From Streptosporangiaceae bacterium (GTDB lineage: Bacteria > Actinomycetota > Actinomycetes > Streptosporangiales > Streptosporangiaceae): a DNA stretch of 5,910 nt. Below the pieces are notes generated by a model. It had not been told where the DNA came from, searched no databases, and saw only the letters and a list, made by a program, of their open reading frames with translations. The translations under genes and the position numbers were made by a program. Below are positions 133 to 5,910 of the stretch, in pieces. The DNA is taken from assembly GCA_030050125.1 (NCBI GenBank), contig JASIJN010000515.1:1-5910 (forward strand), written 5' to 3'. Each line of letters opens with the position of its first letter. The stretch's first letter is position 1.

Positions 133-513
133 CTACGGAAGAGGGGGAGGCTGGCCGGCCTCGGCGATCTGCGCGGCCAGCCGGGATGGCCCGGTGATCA
201 CCAGGGCCCGGGCCGGCTCATCGCTGGTCACCGCGAAGCCGTGGCAGCAGTCGCGGGGCATGAACACGAAGCTGCCCGCTGTGGCGATCCAGCCGTCGTC
301 GCCACAGAAGCCGGTGAGCTCGCCGGCCAGGACGTAGAACATCTCGTCCTCGCCCTCGTGCACGTGCGGCGGCACCACCAGGCCCGCCGGGTAGCCCGAC
401 TCCATCACGCCCAGCTGGCCGCGTGTGTGCGCCGCCGATGCCTTGATCACGACCGTGGCCCCGTGGAACCCGTAGGCCGGGCCCTCCTGCGAGCCAAGCA
501 CGAACCCGGACAT
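133..513 (-). CDS. Small single-domain cupin protein
   Basis: A 126-residue protein made of one cupin beta-barrel. Cupin motif 1 is clear: G44, then H50-V-H52, E57 and G64 with the expected spacing. Motif 2 is G80, P86 and H91. The predicted metal ligands are therefore H50, H52, E57 and H91, all present. Single cupins of this size include metal-dependent dioxygenases, isomerases, and sugar or small-molecule binding proteins, so the reaction cannot be named. There is no signal peptide, so it is probably cytosolic. The ATG at 513 follows a purine-rich AAGGGGGAG a few bases upstream. It is the last gene of the minus-strand block, 88 nt after the oxidoreductase stop, and is followed by a strong hairpin. 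The context suggests an accessory step or substrate handling in the same catabolic route. The cupin fold is secure; the role is inference. Confidence 0.85.
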   Translation of the reverse strand: MSGFVLGSQEGPAYGFHGATVVIKASAAHTRGQLGVMESGYPAGLVVPPHVHEGEDEMFYVLAGELTGFCGDDGWIATAGSFVFMPRDCCHGFAVTSDEPARALVITGPSRLAAQIAEAGQPPPLP

Positions 514-601: not shown

Positions 602-1573
602 TCAGGGGATCAGCACAACGCGCCGGTACGGAGGCTGCCCGCACCGCGACCATCCGTCGGCGGCCCGGGTGAGCGGCATGGTCTGGCGATCGGCGGTCAG
701 GCGCCCCGCCGCCGCGTGGGCCAGGATCTGCCCCAGCGCGGCGGCCTTCTGCTCCTGGCTGAGCGCGTTGTTGGTGTAGCCGAGGACGGACAGCACGCCG
801 CCGCGCACGGCGGCCGACCCGAAGGCGGCCAGGGGCCCGGCCGCTGATCCGAGGTTGACCAGCCGGCCGTGCGGGGCCAGGACGCCGAGCGCGGCCTCGG
901 CGGGCCGTCCCCAGACCGGGTCCAGCACCAGGTCGGCCCGGCCGGCCGTGGCCTCGGCCAGCCGGGTCCTGATCGTGTCCGCGTCGTCCCCCGACAGGTC
1001 GGCGACGGCATCGGCGCCCAGTTCGGCCGCCCGGGCCCGGCCCTGCGGGTCGCGGCAGGCGGCCACCACCCGTGCGGCGCCGTGCAGTCGCGCCACCTGA
1101 ATGCCGACCTGGCCGACCGCGCCGCTGGCCCCGAGTATCAGCACGTGGTCGCCCGGACGCAGTCCGCCTCGCCAGGTCAGCGCCATCCACGCCGCGACCG
1201 CGGACAGCCCGAGCGCCGCGGCGAGGTCGTCGCTCACCCCGTCGGGCAGCGGCACGATCCCGGCCTCGTCCGCGACGCACAGTTCGGCCATGGCGCCGTC
1301 GCCCGGCCGCATCCCCGCGTCACAGCTGAACCAGGCCCGCTGACCCGGTCGCAGCCCGGAAGCCTCCTCGATCACCCCGACGCCCTGGACGCCCGGCGCG
1401 TAGGGCAGCGCGGGCGCGCCGAAATACGACGTCCCGGAGGCGCACAGCAGGTCGAGCGGGCTGATCGGGGCCGCCGTCACCCGGATCAGCGCCTGGCCCT
1501 CCGCGCGGAGCGGCGCCGGGTGCGACCCGAACTCCGGAGCTGCGCCGTGACGGCGGAGAACCGCTGCCCGCAT
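602..1573 (-). CDS. Zinc-free medium-chain dehydrogenase/reductase, quinone oxidoreductase-like
   Basis: A 323-residue NAD(P)H-dependent oxidoreductase of the MDR superfamily. The N-terminal GroES-like catalytic domain (about 1-125) begins with the typical MRAAVL strand and carries the YAPGVQGVGVI segment (58-68). The Rossmann domain (about 126-260) has the nucleotide-binding loop LGASGAVGQVG (147-157). Neither the catalytic zinc ligands nor the four-cysteine structural zinc lobe of alcohol dehydrogenases is visible, which places it in the quinone-oxidoreductase/zeta-crystallin group. Family members reduce quinones or activated enones with NADPH; the substrate here is unknown. The ATG at 1573 is chosen because GGGAGGAGG lies 10 nt upstream and the protein then starts as family members do. 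An alternative ATG at 1633 overlaps the amidohydrolase stop as TGATG and would add a Gly/Ala-rich 20-residue extension. It is cotranscribed with the amidohydrolase in all likelihood. The family is certain; the function is inferred. Confidence 0.9.
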   Translation of the reverse strand: MRAAVLRRHGAAPEFGSHPAPLRAEGQALIRVTAAPISPLDLLCASGTSYFGAPALPYAPGVQGVGVIEEASGLRPGQRAWFSCDAGMRPGDGAMAELCVADEAGIVPLPDGVSDDLAAALGLSAVAAWMALTWRGGLRPGDHVLILGASGAVGQVGIQVARLHGAARVVAACRDPQGRARAAELGADAVADLSGDDADTIRTRLAEATAGRADLVLDPVWGRPAEAALGVLAPHGRLVNLGSAAGPLAAFGSAAVRGGVLSVLGYTNNALSQEQKAAALGQILAHAAAGRLTADRQTMPLTRAADGWSRCGQPPYRRVVLIP

Positions 1574-1632: not shown

Positions 1633-3141
1633 TCAGGACTGCGCGCCCGCGTCCTCGGTATAGGTGTAGGTGTACGGGTTGTCCAGGACCCTGGTCTCGG
1701 GGATCTCCGGGTGCATGCCCTCGTTCCAGGCCTCCGGCCCGAGGACGCCGCGCAGGTAGTCGACCGTCTGCCCGACCACCTCGCGTGCCCTGGCCAGGTC
1801 CACGCCCACCAGCGCGTGGTCGTACTTCACGACCCGGCCGTTCACCACCACCGTGTGCACGTCGCCGCGCTGGGCCTGGAAGACGACGTGCCCGTAGGGG
1901 TGCAGCAGCGGGAACATCACCGGCGAGGCGTCGTTCTTGATCAGCACCACGTCGGCCTTCGTGCCCGGCTTCAGGCTGCCCACCACCGAGTCCAGCCCGA
2001 GCGCCCGGGCCCCGCCCCGGGTCGCCCAGTCCACCACCTGCTCGGCGCGCAGCTTGTGGTGGGTGACGGTCTCGTCCCTGCTGTGCGCCTCCAGGTGCTC
2101 GCGGGCCCGGTCCGCGCTGAGCGTGGCCCGCATGGCCGAGAACAGGTCGGCGCTCCACCAGACGCTGGTGTCCATGGACAGCGACACGTCGATGCCGTGC
2201 TCGCGCAGCTTCCAGGTGGGCGGGTAGCCCTGCCCGGCGCTCTGCTCGCTCTCGGTGGACAGCGAGACCGATCCGCCGGTCGCCGCGATCCGGTGGTAGG
2301 AATCCGGCGACAGGCTGGCCGAGTGCACGTAGATCGTGCCCGGGGTCATGAACCCGTGCTCGTGCATGAGCCTGATGCCCTCGTCGGTGGTCACCTTCCA
2401 CACCCCGGCGTGCGTGGTCACCGGCACGCCCAGGTCCCTGGCCACCTCGAACGCCGCCTTCTCCGGGAAGTCCGGGCTGGCCGGCGGCACGTCGAAGGCC
2501 ATCTGGAAGCCGAGCATGTCGCTGCCGCCGCCGAAGTGGCGGCCGACGAAGTCGCGGAACTCCGGGGTGGCCGACCACTCCCACGGGGCCTGCTGGATGT
2601 TGCCGTAGGCCAGGACGAACCGGCCGGGAACCGCCCGGAGCGCGTCCAGGGCCGCCTCCGCGTGCTCGGTCGTCTGCAGGTTGTGCGACCAGTCCACGGT
2701 GGTGGTGACGCCGGCGTCGATCGCCTCGATCGCGCTGAGCAGGTTGCCCGCGTAGATGTCCTGCGGCCGGAATGACTTGCCCCACTGCAGGTAGTTCCAC
2801 ACGAAGTACTGGGTCAGCGTCCAGTCGGCGCCGTAGCCCCGCATCGCGGTCTGCCACATGTGCCGGTGCGTGTCGATCATGCCCGGCATCACGATGCCGC
2901 CGGTCGCGTCGATCTCGGCCGTGCCCTCGGGCACCTCGAGGCGCGGGCCCACCGCGGCGATGCGCTCGCCGCTGATCAGGACGTCGCCGCCGGACAGCAC
3001 GTGATGGCCGTCATCCATGGTCAGTACGGTGGCGTTCCGGAACACCACCGGTCGGCCCGGGGTCAGGTCGGCGGCACTCGGGCTGGCCGCGGGCGCGCCC
3101 CGCGTGCCTGTCGTATTATCGGCGCCCGGCGTGGCTGTCAT
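1633..3141 (-). CDS. Amidohydrolase, deaminase/chlorohydrolase (AtzA/TrzN/SAH-deaminase-like) branch
   Basis: A 502-residue metal-dependent hydrolase with a TIM-barrel core. The pattern is H92-x-H94 in MIDTHRHMWQ, H244 in TTHAGV, H273 in YVHSASLS and D324 in SLSMDTSVWW. This is the mononuclear-metal ligand set of cytosolic deaminases and s-triazine hydrolases. The small beta-sandwich is built from about residues 33-80 and 385-435 (SLKPGTKADVVLIKND, then VVVNGRVV). Family members hydrolyse C-N or C-Cl bonds on purines, pyrimidines, triazines or amino compounds; the substrate is not predictable. The usual Glu three residues after the third metal His is V247 here, so catalysis may differ. Residues 1-30 are Ala/Pro/Thr-rich and probably disordered; the C-terminus has a curious YTYTYT run (490-495). 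The ATG at 3141 follows GGAGGG by 4 nt. The start is 193 nt from the transporter stop, in a gap full of operator-like repeats, so it probably has its own promoter. Confidence 0.93.
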   Translation of the reverse strand: MTATPGADNTTGTRGAPAASPSAADLTPGRPVVFRNATVLTMDDGHHVLSGGDVLISGERIAAVGPRLEVPEGTAEIDATGGIVMPGMIDTHRHMWQTAMRGYGADWTLTQYFVWNYLQWGKSFRPQDIYAGNLLSAIEAIDAGVTTTVDWSHNLQTTEHAEAALDALRAVPGRFVLAYGNIQQAPWEWSATPEFRDFVGRHFGGGSDMLGFQMAFDVPPASPDFPEKAAFEVARDLGVPVTTHAGVWKVTTDEGIRLMHEHGFMTPGTIYVHSASLSPDSYHRIAATGGSVSLSTESEQSAGQGYPPTWKLREHGIDVSLSMDTSVWWSADLFSAMRATLSADRAREHLEAHSRDETVTHHKLRAEQVVDWATRGGARALGLDSVVGSLKPGTKADVVLIKNDASPVMFPLLHPYGHVVFQAQRGDVHTVVVNGRVVKYDHALVGVDLARAREVVGQTVDYLRGVLGPEAWNEGMHPEIPETRVLDNPYTYTYTEDAGAQS

Positions 3142-3179
3142 GTTTCCCTCCGCTAGCTCGCAGGCAGATATCGGCGATG

Positions 3180-3193
3180 CGGACGCTCGTCCG
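3180..3193. promoter_or_regulatory. CGGAC-N4-GTCCG inverted repeat in the amidohydrolase leader
   Basis: CGGAC (3180-3184) and GTCCG (3189-3193) flank GCTC. The same element with an AATC centre is found at 5123-5136, before the dioxygenase; the two 14-mers match at 12 positions. The left arm is also the end of an 11-nt block, GCGATGCGGAC (3174-3184), that is shared exactly with the operator-like site at 4067-4083. A regulatory site is likely. The binding protein is inferred to be the neighbouring IclR-type regulator. Confidence 0.45.
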
Positions 3194-3199
3194 TCTCAC

Positions 3200-3213
3200 G
3201 GCTGGACCCAGCC
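3200..3213. promoter_or_regulatory. Perfect inverted repeat GGCTGG-AC-CCAGCC
   Basis: Two perfect 6-bp arms separated by AC lie between the two GTCCG-type elements upstream of the amidohydrolase. It could be a protein-binding palindrome; a 2-nt loop is too tight for an RNA hairpin unless the end of the stem opens. It is not repeated elsewhere in the regulatory gaps, so its meaning is uncertain. Confidence 0.3.
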
Positions 3214-3230
3214 TGTCCGGAAGCGTCGCG
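3214..3230. promoter_or_regulatory. Degenerate operator-like site with one good half
   Basis: TGTCCGG-AAG-CGTCGCG keeps only the left arm of the 17-bp palindrome seen elsewhere in the window. The 13-mer CCTGTCCGGAAGC (3212-3224) is the exact reverse complement of 5137-5149 at the dioxygenase operator, which is why it is listed. It overlaps the candidate -10 region of the amidohydrolase promoter. Confidence 0.35.
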
Positions 3231-3251
3231 GCTTTCGTGATCGGTTGTCAA
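3222..3251 (-). promoter_or_regulatory. Candidate promoter of the amidohydrolase operon
   Basis: On the minus strand a perfect TTGACA (3251-3246) is followed after 18 nt by GACGCT (3227-3222), a poor -10 resembling the actinobacterial TAGACT only at A, C and T. Transcription would start near 3215 and give a leader of about 75 nt. A weak -10 beside good operator-like sites would suit a regulated, perhaps activator-dependent promoter. This is inference from sequence only. Confidence 0.35.
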
Positions 3252-3292
3252 GGCCCGGCCCGCGCCCCGGCGGCGACCGGTCCGGCGGGGCC

Positions 3293-3309
3293 TGTCCGCA
3301 TCGCGGTCG
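3293..3309. promoter_or_regulatory. Operator-like palindrome A, upstream of the amidohydrolase
   Basis: TGTCCGC-ATC-GCGGTCG. Read on the other strand it matches the site at 4067-4083 in 16 of 17 positions, in a gap with no coding function. It sits about 40 bp upstream of the candidate -35 element of the amidohydrolase promoter, a place more typical of activator binding, and just beyond the hairpin that follows the transporter. IclR-family proteins of the PcaU/PcaR group bind interrupted palindromes and often activate. The link to the regulator at 4264-5079 is inferred. Confidence 0.6.
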
Positions 3310-3311
3310 GG

Positions 3312-3328
3312 CCCGGCCAGCGGCCGGG
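3312..3328 (-). terminator. Hairpin after the transporter gene
   Basis: CCCGGCC (3312-3318) and GGCCGGG (3322-3328) form a perfect 7-bp stem with an AGC loop, 6 nt beyond the transporter stop codon on the minus strand. There is no U-tract. It probably ends or attenuates the transporter transcript, supporting a separate promoter for the amidohydrolase. Short GC stems are common here, so confidence is moderate. Confidence 0.5.
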
Positions 3329-3334
3329 GACCGG

Positions 3335-4009
3335 CTACTTGCCGCCGAGCAGGCTCAGCACGGGCTTGCCGAACGGCAACGGCTTGCCGCCCACCGACAC
3401 GATCGCCGTGCCCAGGTACCCGTAGTACCCGAGGGCCGCGAACACCAGCACGAACACCCCGCCCACGCGTTCGGTTCCGGTGGAGGACTGCAGCACGCCG
3501 ATGGTGATCAGCGTGACACCGACCACCCCGGCCCCCAGGATCAGCGAGAACAGCAGCGGGATACGGAGGCTGACCAGGAACAGCATGAAGATCACGATGT
3601 CCCAGGAGATCAGGAACTCCCCGATGGTGTGCAGGATGCTGGCAGGCGGGATCCCGTACCAGTTGTGGGTGAGCCCGAGCACCAGCGCGGCGTAGCTGAT
3701 CCAGAAGCACGCGAACGCGCCCAGCACGGTGGCCACGAAGGTCTGGCCGAGCGCCACCGCCCACACCGTGGTCACCAGCAGGCCAAGGCCGGTGGCCGCG
3801 TAGACGATCGGCATGATCGTGTTGCCCTGGACCGCCAGCGGCACGTAGCCGAGCAGCGAGATGCCCAGAACGGTGCTGCCGAGCGCGAAGACCAGCAGCC
3901 CGAGCGGGACCGGGTCGCCGGCCGGCGGCGCGGCCACCATCTCCTCCGCGGGCGCGGGAGGCGCCTCGGGGATCTTCTCGTCGCTGGTGTCTGCCTGAAC
4001 TTCTGTCAC
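3335..4009 (-). CDS. GPR1/FUN34/YaaH (SatP-type) acetate/dicarboxylate transporter
   Basis: A 224-residue membrane protein with six predicted helices at about 36-56, 66-87, 89-113, 131-149, 150-173 and 183-204. The family signature preceding helix 1, usually NPAPLGL, is D32-P-V-P-L-G-L here. FWIS (102-105) in helix 3 and LISWDIVIFMLFLVSLRI (133-150) also fit the family. Known members are acetate or succinate channels/symporters in the cytoplasmic membrane. The hydrophilic N-terminus (1-30) is acidic and Pro/Ala-rich. The GTG at 4009 is preferred because AGGAGG lies 5 nt before it. Upstream alternatives (ATG at 4054, TTG at 4084) lack a comparable site and would run into the operator-like sequence at 4067-4083. 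The gene is divergent from the IclR-type regulator and upstream of the amidohydrolase. It may take up a growth substrate or move acids produced by the pathway. Family good; substrate inferred. Confidence 0.85.
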   Translation of the reverse strand: MTEVQADTSDEKIPEAPPAPAEEMVAAPPAGDPVPLGLLVFALGSTVLGISLLGYVPLAVQGNTIMPIVYAATGLGLLVTTVWAVALGQTFVATVLGAFACFWISYAALVLGLTHNWYGIPPASILHTIGEFLISWDIVIFMLFLVSLRIPLLFSLILGAGVVGVTLITIGVLQSSTGTERVGGVFVLVFAALGYYGYLGTAIVSVGGKPLPFGKPVLSLLGGK

Positions 4010-4014
4010 CGGAG

Positions 4015-4020
4015 CCTCCT
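4015..4020 (-). promoter_or_regulatory. Ribosome binding site deciding the transporter GTG start
   Basis: A perfect AGGAGG on the minus strand is separated by CTCCG from the GTG at 4009. It sets the start 25 codons inside the longest open frame. Confidence 0.65.
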
Positions 4021-4066
4021 CATGTGGTGGCACATCGCCAGGGAACGGGACCATCGCGGCCAGCCG

Positions 4067-4083
4067 TGACCGCGATGCGGACA
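4067..4083. promoter_or_regulatory. Operator-like palindrome B, transporter side of the divergent gap
   Basis: TGACCGC-GAT-GCGGACA is an interrupted 7-3-7 palindrome with only one mismatched pair between arms. It shares the 11-mer CCGCGATGCGG with the site at 4198-4214 and is nearly identical to the reverse complement of 3293-3309. It lies 57 nt upstream of the transporter start, downstream of the candidate start point, where bound protein would repress. It is most likely a site for the adjacent IclR-type regulator (inference). Confidence 0.65.
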
Positions 4084-4107
4084 AAGACTCGCATAGTGAA
4101 CGCGCAC

Positions 4108-4136
4108 AGCATTTCTCTCCGCCATACGGAAGTCAA
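4108..4136 (-). promoter_or_regulatory. Candidate transporter promoter
   Basis: On the minus strand TTGACT (4136-4131) is followed after 17 nt by AATGCT (4113-4108). The region 4081-4140 is visibly richer in A/T than its surroundings, as expected of a promoter. The -10 match is modest. Transcription would begin near 4101, placing palindrome B in the early leader. Confidence 0.35.
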
Positions 4137-4197
4137 TAGCCCTGCCGCACCGCGAGAAGCTGGCTCATGGGACCGCCGTACCGGTTGCGCAAATGGG

Positions 4198-4214
4198 TGT
4201 CCGCGATGCGGCCA
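4198..4214. promoter_or_regulatory. Operator-like palindrome C, regulator side of the divergent gap
   Basis: TGTCCGC-GAT-GCGGCCA differs from palindrome B at two positions and shares its centre exactly. It begins 66 nt before the IclR-type start codon and would overlap the regulator's -35 region, fitting autoregulation, which is common in this family. A perfect 8-bp palindrome TTGCGCAA (4185-4192) lies just to its left. The centre-to-centre distance to B is 131 bp. Confidence 0.65.
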
Positions 4215-4237
4215 GAAAACGGCCGTCACGATACAGT
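4209..4237 (+). promoter_or_regulatory. Weak candidate promoter of the regulator gene
   Basis: TACAGT (4232-4237) is a fair -10 hexamer, with CGGCCA (4209-4214) 17 nt upstream as a poor -35. Transcription would start near 4244, giving a leader of about 20 nt. The poor -35 overlaps palindrome C, so the regulator may control its own synthesis. Low confidence. Confidence 0.3.
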
Positions 4238-4263
4238 CGGTGTCGGCTAGCGAGAGGAGGGCC

Positions 4264-5079
4264 ATGGCCCGCCGTGATAGCAGTCCGGACTTCATCGAGG
4301 CACTGGCCCGCGGCCTCGATGTGCTCCGCGCGTTCGAGCCGCGCCAGCCCGTCATGTCCCTGGCCGCCGTGGCCGCCGCCGCCGGGCTGCCCCGGCCCAC
4401 CGCGCGGCGGGTGCTGCTCACCCTGGAACGCCTGGGCTACGTGCGCGTCGCCGAGCCGGGCGGCTTCGAGCTGACGCCGCGGGTGCTGGAACTCGGCACC
4501 AGCTACGTGCTGTCGCGCGGCCTGTGGGAGGTGGCCCGGCCGCACATGGAGCGGCTGGTCGCGCGCACCCACGAGTCGTCGTCCATCGCCCAGCTCGACG
4601 GCTCCGACATCGTCTACGTGGCCAGGGTCGCCGTCCCGAAGATCATCGCGCTGGCGGTGACCATCGGCACCAGGTTCCCGGCCATGCAGACCTCGCTGGG
4701 CAAGGTCATGCTCGCGGCGCTGCCCCCGGACGAGGCCGAGCGGGTGCTGGCCGAGCCGAGCCGGTCCGGGATCACCGCACGCTGGCAGCCGGACGCCGCG
4801 GAGCGCGCCGCGGCCCTGCGCGAGGTGCGGGCGCGGGGCTGGGCGCTCACCGACGAGCAGCTCGCGCTGGGGATCCGCTCCGTGGCCGCCCCGCTGCGCG
4901 ACGGCGACGGGCGGGTCATCGCCGCTATGAACGTCACGGTGCACGCCGCGGAGACCCCGGTCGAGACGCTGACCGGGGAGTACCTGCCGCTGCTGCTGCA
5001 GACCGCCGGGGCGGTCAGCGCGGACTGGGCCGCGTGCCATGCCGCGCCCCAGATCATGGTGGCCCAGGCCACGTCCTGA
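4264..5079 (+). CDS. IclR-family transcriptional regulator, PcaR/PcaU/PobR subgroup
   Basis: A 271-residue DNA-binding regulator. The N-terminal winged helix-turn-helix (about 10-75) contains the characteristic EALARGLDVLRAF opening (12-24), the MSLAAVAAAAGLPRPTARRV helix pair (31-50) and the wing ending FELTPRVLELG (68-78). The effector-binding IclR domain follows (about 85-252). The text of the HTH-wing region is that of the PcaR/PcaU/PobR subgroup, whose known members respond to protocatechuate, 4-hydroxybenzoate or beta-ketoadipate. Ligand specificity here is not predictable. The ATG at 4264 follows GAGAGGAGGG closely. The long in-frame extension upstream has no coding character and covers the operator region. 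The gene is divergent from the transporter and 79 nt upstream of a ring-cleaving dioxygenase, the classical setting of a local pathway regulator. Palindromes at 3293, 4067, 4198 and 5131 are its likely targets (inference). Confidence 0.93.
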   Translation: MARRDSSPDFIEALARGLDVLRAFEPRQPVMSLAAVAAAAGLPRPTARRVLLTLERLGYVRVAEPGGFELTPRVLELGTSYVLSRGLWEVARPHMERLVARTHESSSIAQLDGSDIVYVARVAVPKIIALAVTIGTRFPAMQTSLGKVMLAALPPDEAERVLAEPSRSGITARWQPDAAERAAALREVRARGWALTDEQLALGIRSVAAPLRDGDGRVIAAMNVTVHAAETPVETLTGEYLPLLLQTAGAVSADWAACHAAPQIMVAQATS

Positions 5080-5083
5080 CTGC

Positions 5084-5113
5084 TTGACAGGGGTCTGGAC
5101 GTCCGCCCAGACT
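5084..5113 (+). promoter_or_regulatory. Probable promoter of the dioxygenase gene
   Basis: A perfect TTGACA (5084-5089) and CAGACT (5108-5113), five of six matches to the actinobacterial TAGACT, are separated by 18 nt. This is the best housekeeping-type promoter in the window. It starts only 4 nt after the regulator's stop, so the dioxygenase can be transcribed separately. The start point would be near 5120, immediately before the operator-like cluster at 5123-5147. Confidence 0.6.
5093..5112. promoter_or_regulatory. Inverted repeat inside the dioxygenase promoter spacer
   Basis: GTCTGG (5093-5098) and CCAGAC (5107-5112) are perfect 6-bp arms around 8 nt, with the palindrome GGACGTCC (5097-5104) nested within. 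As RNA it could be a weak terminator of the regulator transcript; as DNA it lies between -35 and -10, so a bound protein would affect promoter use. The two readings cannot be separated from sequence. Confidence 0.35.
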
Positions 5114-5122
5114 GCAGATCGT

Positions 5123-5147
5123 CGGACAATCGTCCGGCTTCCGGACA
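5123..5147. promoter_or_regulatory. Operator cluster D of three GTCCG half-sites before the dioxygenase
   Basis: Three half-sites follow one another: CGGAC (5123-5127), GTCCGG (5132-5137) and CCGGAC (5141-5146). The last two make a perfect 6-3-6 palindrome, a variant of the 17-bp motif found in the other gaps. The first two make the CGGAC-N4-GTCCG element also found at 3180-3193. The half-sites repeat about every 10 bp, so they lie on one face of the helix. The cluster is just downstream of the predicted start point, suited to repression. For the related PcaU, binding to three 10-bp repeats (a palindrome plus a direct repeat) is known. Confidence 0.6.
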
Positions 5148-5151
5148 GGAG
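5147..5151 (+). promoter_or_regulatory. Ribosome binding site deciding the dioxygenase start
   Basis: AGGAG lies 7 nt before the GTG at 5159 but only 1 nt before the in-frame GTG at 5153. The later GTG is therefore chosen. The site abuts operator cluster D. Confidence 0.55.
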
Positions 5152-5158
5152 AGTGCGC

Positions 5159-5910
5159 GTGGCCACGATCGCCGCGATCATCGCGTCCACCCACCACCCC
5201 TTCTTCCTCCGGGCCAGTACGGCCTCCGGCGAGGACCGGCCGCCGTTCGCCGACGAGTGGGTGGCCAAGATCGAGGCCTTCCGCGAGACCCTGACCCGGG
5301 CCCGGCCCGACGTGCTCGTCATGGTCGGCAGCGATCATTTCCACCAGCTGTGGCTGGACAACATGCCCCAGTTCCTGGTGGGGAAGGCCCCGTTCTACGA
5401 CGCGAACTACTACAACGAGGAGCGGGAGTTCGGGCTGCCCAGGATGAGGCTGCGCGGCGACGAGGACCTGTCGGCGCACCTGCTGCGCGGCGGCATCGAC
5501 GCCGGCTTCGACCTGGCCTTCAGCAACGAGCTGCGGGTCGACCACAGCATCACCTGCCCGATCATCACCCTGCGGCCGCAGGCGGACCTGCCGATCGTGC
5601 CGGTGTACACCAATATCTTCGCCCCGCCGATGCCGCAGCCCAAGAGGTTCGTGGAGCTCGGCCAGGCCATCCGGGCCCTGGTGCAGAGCTGGCCGAGCGA
5701 CCAGCGGGTGGCGATCATCGGCACCGGCCACCTGTCGCTGGAGCTGGGCGGGCCGCGGCAGTTCGGCCCGCACGGCCCCGACCCGGAGTTCGACCGCAAG
5801 GCCGTGGCCTGGATCGCCTCGTCCGACCTGGACGCCGCCCTGGACGAGGTCAGCCTGGACAGCCTGTGGCAGCCCGGGAACGCCACCCACGGGTTCATGG
5901 ACTTCATGCT
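5159..5910 (+). CDS. LigB-like class III extradiol ring-cleavage dioxygenase (3' end outside window)
   Basis: The first 250 residues are visible; family members are about 270-300, so little is missing. The LigB fold is recognised by ASTHHP (9-14), GSDHFH (57-62), RVDHSITCPI (126-135) and IIGTGHLSLELGGP (186-199). H12 and H60 correspond to the two iron-binding histidines of LigB (His12, His61). Such enzymes use Fe(II) and O2 to cleave protocatechuate-type catechols or aminophenols in the cytosol. Two positions are odd. Where LigB-type proteins have the acid-base His in GTGG-x-SH, this one has L194, with a His at 191 instead. Where the iron ligand Glu is expected near the C-terminus, the segment reads GNATHGFMDFM (240-250) with Gly at the aligned place. 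It may be a divergent subfamily or not a dioxygenase at all. It has its own promoter and operator behind the IclR-type gene. Family call good; activity uncertain. Confidence 0.83.
   Translation, partial: MATIAAIIASTHHPFFLRASTASGEDRPPFADEWVAKIEAFRETLTRARPDVLVMVGSDHFHQLWLDNMPQFLVGKAPFYDANYYNEEREFGLPRMRLRGDEDLSAHLLRGGIDAGFDLAFSNELRVDHSITCPIITLRPQADLPIVPVYTNIFAPPMPQPKRFVELGQAIRALVQSWPSDQRVAIIGTGHLSLELGGPRQFGPHGPDPEFDRKAVAWIASSDLDAALDEVSLDSLWQPGNATHGFMDFM

Follow-up and report, generated by a model that had tools for sequence, protein, structure and literature searches.

Interrupted palindromes of similar sequence lie on both sides of an IclR-family regulator gene (positions 4264-5079) on contig JASIJN010000515.1 from a Streptosporangiaceae bacterium (GenBank assembly GCA_030050125.1), which raises the question of whether they are the regulator's operators and, if so, what the regulator controls. 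We analysed the whole 5,910-nucleotide stretch (hereafter "the window") together with related loci. We consider it likely that the palindromes are operators of this regulator, which would act as an effector-relieved repressor of a small, autoregulated catabolic regulon. We infer from sequence that the regulator binds these sites, that it represses rather than activates, and that an effector is involved. The arrangement matches that of a local autoregulated regulon, with predicted sites retained at the regulator's own gene and at neighbouring operons together with the regulator.

A preliminary description of the window listed four 17-bp palindromes related to the consensus TGTCCGC-N3-GCGGACA. 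All four are present, exactly at 3293-3309, 4067-4083, 4198-4214 and 5131-5147, with two, one, one and three mismatches to the consensus, respectively. By direct reading, the first matches the second at 16 of 17 positions in the opposite orientation, and CCGCGATGCGG is common to the second and third, both as described. The list nevertheless required two changes: the supposed variant at 5131-5147 is part of the strongest site in the window, a 25-bp site at 5123-5147 of which it forms the right-hand two thirds, and a site at 3180-3204 had been overlooked. Allowing up to three mismatches, we found six matches to the consensus in the window (two further matches, at 636 and 3169, besides the four listed), as compared to 1.11 expected, and only one of 200 dinucleotide shuffles attained six.

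For comparison, we used the best 80 of 187 stretches encoding a relative of the regulator (70-86% identity over the best segment); the closest relatives among those found are from Streptosporangiaceae and other actinomycetes. Without assuming a motif, we tallied every exact inverted repeat of 5-mers within 280 bp upstream of the gene for 79 regulators (one locus, L078, starts inside the gene) and took the expectations from 2678 control stretches in those loci. The top dyad, CGGAC-N4-GTCCG, was found upstream of 66 of the 79 regulators versus 0.83 expected, which bears out the conservation that the preliminary description anticipated in the gaps of related genomes. The second, GTCCG-N5-CGGAC, was found upstream of 30 versus 0.91 expected. 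When the 66 sites are stacked, CGG(A/T)CA emerges as a third box, separated from GTCCG by 5 bp on its right; the left side shows nothing similarly conserved. Since the third box is conserved on one side, the operator consists of three half-sites in alternating direction. Its unit at the enzyme operons is CGGAC-N4-GTCCG-N5-CGG(A/T)CA, positioned in the leader.

The number of boxes differs by location. Of 80 loci (window included), 64 have the two-box core at the regulator's own promoter, and 12 of those 64 also have a third box. For the two other regions, on the amidohydrolase side and past the regulator stop codon, the core is present in 56 of 80 loci and in 58 of 79, accompanied by a third box in 46 of 56 and 52 of 58. 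Control stretches of 200 bp contain the two-box core in 821 of 3497 cases and the three-box form in 70 of 3497, although some controls contain real cluster sites. The two-box criterion, which allows one mismatch, is loose, and hence its background is high.

We scored the window with a three-box matrix built from 62 distinct sites of relatives, with the window held out, and a two-box matrix built from 42 sites of relatives only. The null consisted of 100 resampled windows with matching dinucleotide steps, each represented by its top score (three-box: median 5.3, maximum 16.8 bits; two-box: 95% level 14.5, maximum 18.3 bits). A multiple alignment of the regulator gap was too gapped outside the 4067 region and misplaced the own-promoter site of one relative, L004; matrix positions were used instead. 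The predicted sites are as follows.

5123-5147, plus strand: three-box operator CGGAC-N4-GTCCG-N5-CGGACA in the dioxygenase leader, 26.0 bits
3180-3204, plus strand: three-box operator upstream of the amidohydrolase gene, with an exact CGGAC-N4-GTCCG and a degenerate third box, CGGCTG, 17.6 bits
3169-3193, minus strand: overlapping reading of the 3180-3204 site in the opposite orientation, third box CCGATA, 18.8 bits
3293-3309, plus strand: two-box palindrome TGTCCGCATCGCGGTCG, some 150 bp from the start of the amidohydrolase gene, 16.2 bits
4067-4083, minus strand: two-box operator in the transporter-gene leader, 19.4 bits, above the null maximum
4198-4214, no strand assigned: two-box operator covering the expected -35 position in the promoter of the regulator gene, 19.5 bits, above the null maximum

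On the two-box matrix, the 5131 palindrome scores 17.3 bits, above the 95% level and below the null maximum. The same holds for 3293, the weakest of the four. We dropped 3293 as a main operator, given its weak score and that no counterpart was found in L004, the sole fetched relative that shares the transporter gene. The 4067 site and its surroundings are conserved in L004.

The position and orientation of the sites are also conserved. Past the regulator stop codon, a region that played no part in matrix training, 53 of 79 loci (window included; two loci are too short) have a three-box site scoring 18 bits or more, and all 53 sites have the same orientation. TTGAC precedes the site within 60 bp in 49 of the 53 and at 33-40 bp in 39; an exact TTGACA is present in 15 of the 53. 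A loosely defined Shine-Dalgarno-like sequence, counted without a control, follows the site within 0-2 nt in 39. On the amidohydrolase side, we considered the 35 loci in which a divergent amidohydrolase gene lies no more than 700 bp away and a site scores at least 18 bits. All 35 sites have the same orientation, which is no independent test since they overlap the training set, and 32 have an exact TTGACA 42-47 bp before the site. In the window, TTGACA precedes the operator by 39 bp on the dioxygenase side (5084 to 5123) and by 47 bp on the amidohydrolase side (3251 to 3204), the latter within the range seen in relatives. With a promoter spacer of 17-18 bp, both kinds of enzyme-operon site would fall just past the transcription start. 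A sigma-70 scan of 3100-5200 gave no promoter at the scan thresholds; the putative promoter elements below were identified from conserved TTGAC spacing and direct reading.

5084-5113, plus strand: putative dioxygenase promoter, TTGACA (5084-5089), 18 bp, CAGACT (5108-5113); direct reading
3246-3251, minus strand: putative amidohydrolase -35, TTGACA; from the TTGACA spacing in relatives
4108-4136, minus strand: putative transporter promoter, TTGACT (4136-4131), 17 bp, AATGCT (4113-4108); direct reading
4232-4237, plus strand: putative -10 of the regulator gene, TACAGT; direct reading

L004 carries TTGACA-17-AATGCT at the position of the putative transporter promoter. For the regulator gene, TANNNT was found at comparable distances only in a minority of 52 own-promoter sites.

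The product of 4264-5079 matches PF09339 (HTH_IclR; 59.1 bits) and PF01614 (IclR_C; 108.6 bits), both above cut-off, as expected of an IclR-family transcription factor with an N-terminal winged helix-turn-helix and a C-terminal effector domain. We propose that a dimer or tetramer of this protein recognises TGTCCG half-sites. In the ring-cleavage and amidohydrolase leaders, it would occupy three alternating half-sites just 3' of the putative -10 and block transcription; at its own gene, it would bind the two-half-site palindrome over the expected -35, resulting in autoregulation. Repression would be relieved when the C-terminal domain binds an aromatic acid or ring-cleavage intermediate.

Alternatively, the same regulator and operators could serve mainly for effector-dependent activation, as described for PcaU and PobR. 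The best NCBIfam match of the regulator is TIGR02431, the PcaR/PcaU/PobR subfamily, at 258.2 bits; this is below the cut-off of 284.75, and we do not assign the regulator to that subfamily. In the available part of a survey of IclR-family operators (Suvorova and Gelfand 2021; PMC8222616), PcaU likewise has three-box sites, and titles cited there call both PcaU and PobR transcriptional activators, so the resemblance leaves the sign of regulation unsettled and counts to that extent against a repressor. However, the enzyme-gene operators lie 3' of the putative -10, a position that favours repression and suits blocking better than activation. We regard activation as an unlikely alternative and prefer the repressor reading.

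If the sites belong to this regulator, they should accompany it. The strict three-box pattern occurs zero to four times per genome in 11 genomes. Of 150 genomes belonging to one family, 54 contain it, with 82 occurrences in all. We defined orthologs as regulator matches with at least 53% identity and treated matches of 43-53% (E near 1e-60 to 1e-71) as paralogs. The strict site is present in 42 of 56 genomes with an ortholog versus 12 of 94 without (Fisher p 1.4e-14, which overstates independence because the genomes are related), and 45 of the 82 sites are within 8 kb of an ortholog. We examined 20 further ortholog promoters, 14 chosen because the genome lacks a strict site and six others, four of them known to hold one. 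A matrix site was detected in 14 of these 20: eight of the 14 from genomes without a strict site (one of which, L094, is the training locus L004) and all six others. The same matrices detected a site in none of 20 paralog promoters. Thus, the local IclR regulon put forward in the preliminary description is supported: sites are kept in the equivalent gaps of relatives, and the strict three-box site follows the ortholog. As a separate observation, four orthologs (G014, G116, G156 and G089) each have one in-frame TGA inside the matched stretch.

Several results weigh against the main reading. The strict site lies away from orthologs in 37 of 82 cases, and a reversed control pattern gives 28 matches; 14 of the 56 genomes with an ortholog have no strict site; and six of the 20 further ortholog promoters have no site above threshold. 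L004, the sole fetched relative bearing the transporter gene, has no above-threshold site before its amidohydrolase gene. The 17-bp consensus, at up to one mismatch, occurs 46 times in the same 11 genomes (one to nine times each) versus 28 for the reversed control, and only six of the 46 sites lie within the fetched clusters. The preliminary description had named thousands of equally good genome hits inside coding regions as a refutation; the count is far below that and yet close to background, such that the 17-bp consensus alone is not supported as a marker of the regulon, and we abandoned it for genome-wide use. The two-box form is not diagnostic by itself, whereas the three-box form and position are; with a two-box consensus that hardly exceeds background across genomes, our case depends on the three-box site and on position.

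The operators could, in principle, belong to another transcription factor encoded elsewhere, with the IclR gene as a fellow target. We consider this very improbable: the 13 strict matches in 12 ortholog-less genomes that speak for it are at about the frequency of the reversed control, while the strict site is associated with the ortholog and absent at paralogs, the site recurs at the regulator's own promoter, and the sites match operator types that the available part of PMC8222616 gives for the IclR family. That they are chance palindromes in very GC-rich DNA, as the frequency of the one-mismatch two-box core in controls, the near-background count of the 17-bp consensus and the fact that 3293 by itself would not stand out might suggest, is even less probable in light of the null tests and the conservation at fixed places across loci, and is already contradicted for 5123, 4198 and 4067.

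The genes of the window suggest what the regulator would control.

133-513, minus strand: cupin protein
602-1573, minus strand: quinone-oxidoreductase-like dehydrogenase; tblastn match in 57 of 80 loci
1633-3141, minus strand: amidohydrolase, AtzA/TrzN/deaminase-like (PRK08204), predicted target; tblastn match in 71 of 80 loci
3335-4009, minus strand: GPR1/FUN34/YaaH-family transporter, predicted target
4264-5079, plus strand: IclR-family regulator, PcaR/PcaU/PobR-like, 271 aa
5159-5910, plus strand: LigB-type class III extradiol dioxygenase, predicted target, extending past the window end; Pfam LigB, 83.4 bits

The dehydrogenase gene, which lies behind the amidohydrolase gene, possibly shares its transcript. 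The longest open reading frame (ORF) of the transporter reaches 4084; translation from a GTG at 4009, which has a Shine-Dalgarno-like sequence, gives a product that matches L004 from its first residue. As L004 is the one locus of 80 with a tblastn match to the transporter (loci extend at most 6 kb per side), this gene, with a predicted site and promoter of its own, may have joined the regulon recently. The dioxygenase gene, directly after the regulator gene, is 86% identical to the gene in L002; its nearest NCBIfam model is PRK13364, with a score below cut-off.

Relatives share a cluster encoding the amidohydrolase, the regulator, a class III CoA-transferase, a citryl-CoA lyase-like protein, a dioxygenase and the quinone-oxidoreductase-like protein. 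The CoA-transferase and citryl-CoA lyase-like genes, which follow the regulator gene in many relatives, are absent from 5080-5158 of the window, and may lie outside it. Across the 80 loci and the window we found 228 sites in 951 kb, with 204 near gene starts (using longest-possible ORF starts and a generous range of -120 to +350 bp, and including some sites that trained the matrix), 22 inside called ORFs and two elsewhere. Starts with sites belong to the amidohydrolase gene in 65 loci, the regulator gene in 61 and the CoA-transferase gene in 44. Even where about 5 kb separate the amidohydrolase gene from the regulator gene, as in several loci of Microbispora and Nonomuraea, the amidohydrolase gene carries three-box sites.

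The dioxygenase is of the LigB-type class III in 48 loci (window included) and intradiol in 24; nine loci have neither, and none has both. This alternation may point to a vicinal trihydroxy ring substrate: on chemical grounds, a ring bearing three adjacent hydroxyls, such as gallate or pyrogallol, would be the simplest substrate from which both dioxygenase types could form the same product. A 119-aa protein without a Pfam match is often encoded beside the LigB-type gene (cluster c7, 13 loci; for example, L007:7741-8100); our guess is that it is a LigA-like small subunit. Literature searches aimed at the conserved cluster showed no matching description among the papers listed. A 4-hydroxypyridine cluster (PMC7356986) was considered and not adopted: in the available part of that report its dioxygenase belongs to the amidohydrolase family, but its regulators are of the FadR and AraC types.

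More tentatively, one regulator may use two operator grammars, three boxes in enzyme leaders and two at its own promoter, to control an undescribed ring-cleavage pathway. That pathway might join the AtzA-like amidohydrolase, the class III CoA-transferase, the citryl-CoA lyase-like enzyme and an extradiol or intradiol dioxygenase. If so, the two grammars would be a natural test of the alternative dimerisation proposed for IclR proteins, and the contrast between three and two boxes under a single regulator a clean place to study IclR pairing on DNA. The analysis gives predicted operators and likely targets to an actinobacterial regulator group without description in the literature searched, and links a conserved catabolic cluster with the cleavage of aromatic rings.

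How do these operators compare to those of known IclR systems? Among the papers listed in a literature search on TGTCCG and IclR, PMC8222616 alone concerns IclR operators by title. As far as the available part of that survey goes, it defines a TGT-11-ACA subgroup (subgroup i) with the consensus TGTYCRYW3RYGRACA, in whose regulons genes of aromatic metabolism and transport are overrepresented. It also reports three-box sites in 32 ortholog groups; PcaU, PobR and HmgR have sites of this kind. The preliminary description did not recognise the motif as a described operator; by this survey, it is of a described IclR type. The consensus of our two-box sites fits the TGT-11-ACA class in length, arms, half-site and spacing, the window sites having one to three mismatches; the centre is not restricted to A/T. 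The 5123-5147 site and those of relatives likewise appear to fit the three-box class, with three alternating half-sites that form one pair of group 1 and another of group 2. PobR and PcaU of Acinetobacter baylyi, which control 4-hydroxybenzoate and protocatechuate genes, also have three-box sites, and the TGTCCG half-site is common to PobR (motif TTGTCCGATSATCGGACAR). The system described here differs in its target genes, in an own promoter that is mostly two-box and in enzyme operators placed in the leader. Among structures in the Protein Data Bank, relatives of the regulator are 2ia2 and 8eju, the latter bearing the name "Pca regulon". Closer to hand, the same-family paralogs (43-53% identical, which we label PcaR-like) have similar repeated half-sites in several of the promoters examined (L112-L131), with GTTCG/CGAAC in place of the GTCCG/CGGAC of the regulator's own group, as if they used the same grammar with another half-site. 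The regulator's ortholog group may already be among the 181 of PMC8222616. The operator type is already known for the IclR family, and the window is therefore a new example of it rather than a new kind.

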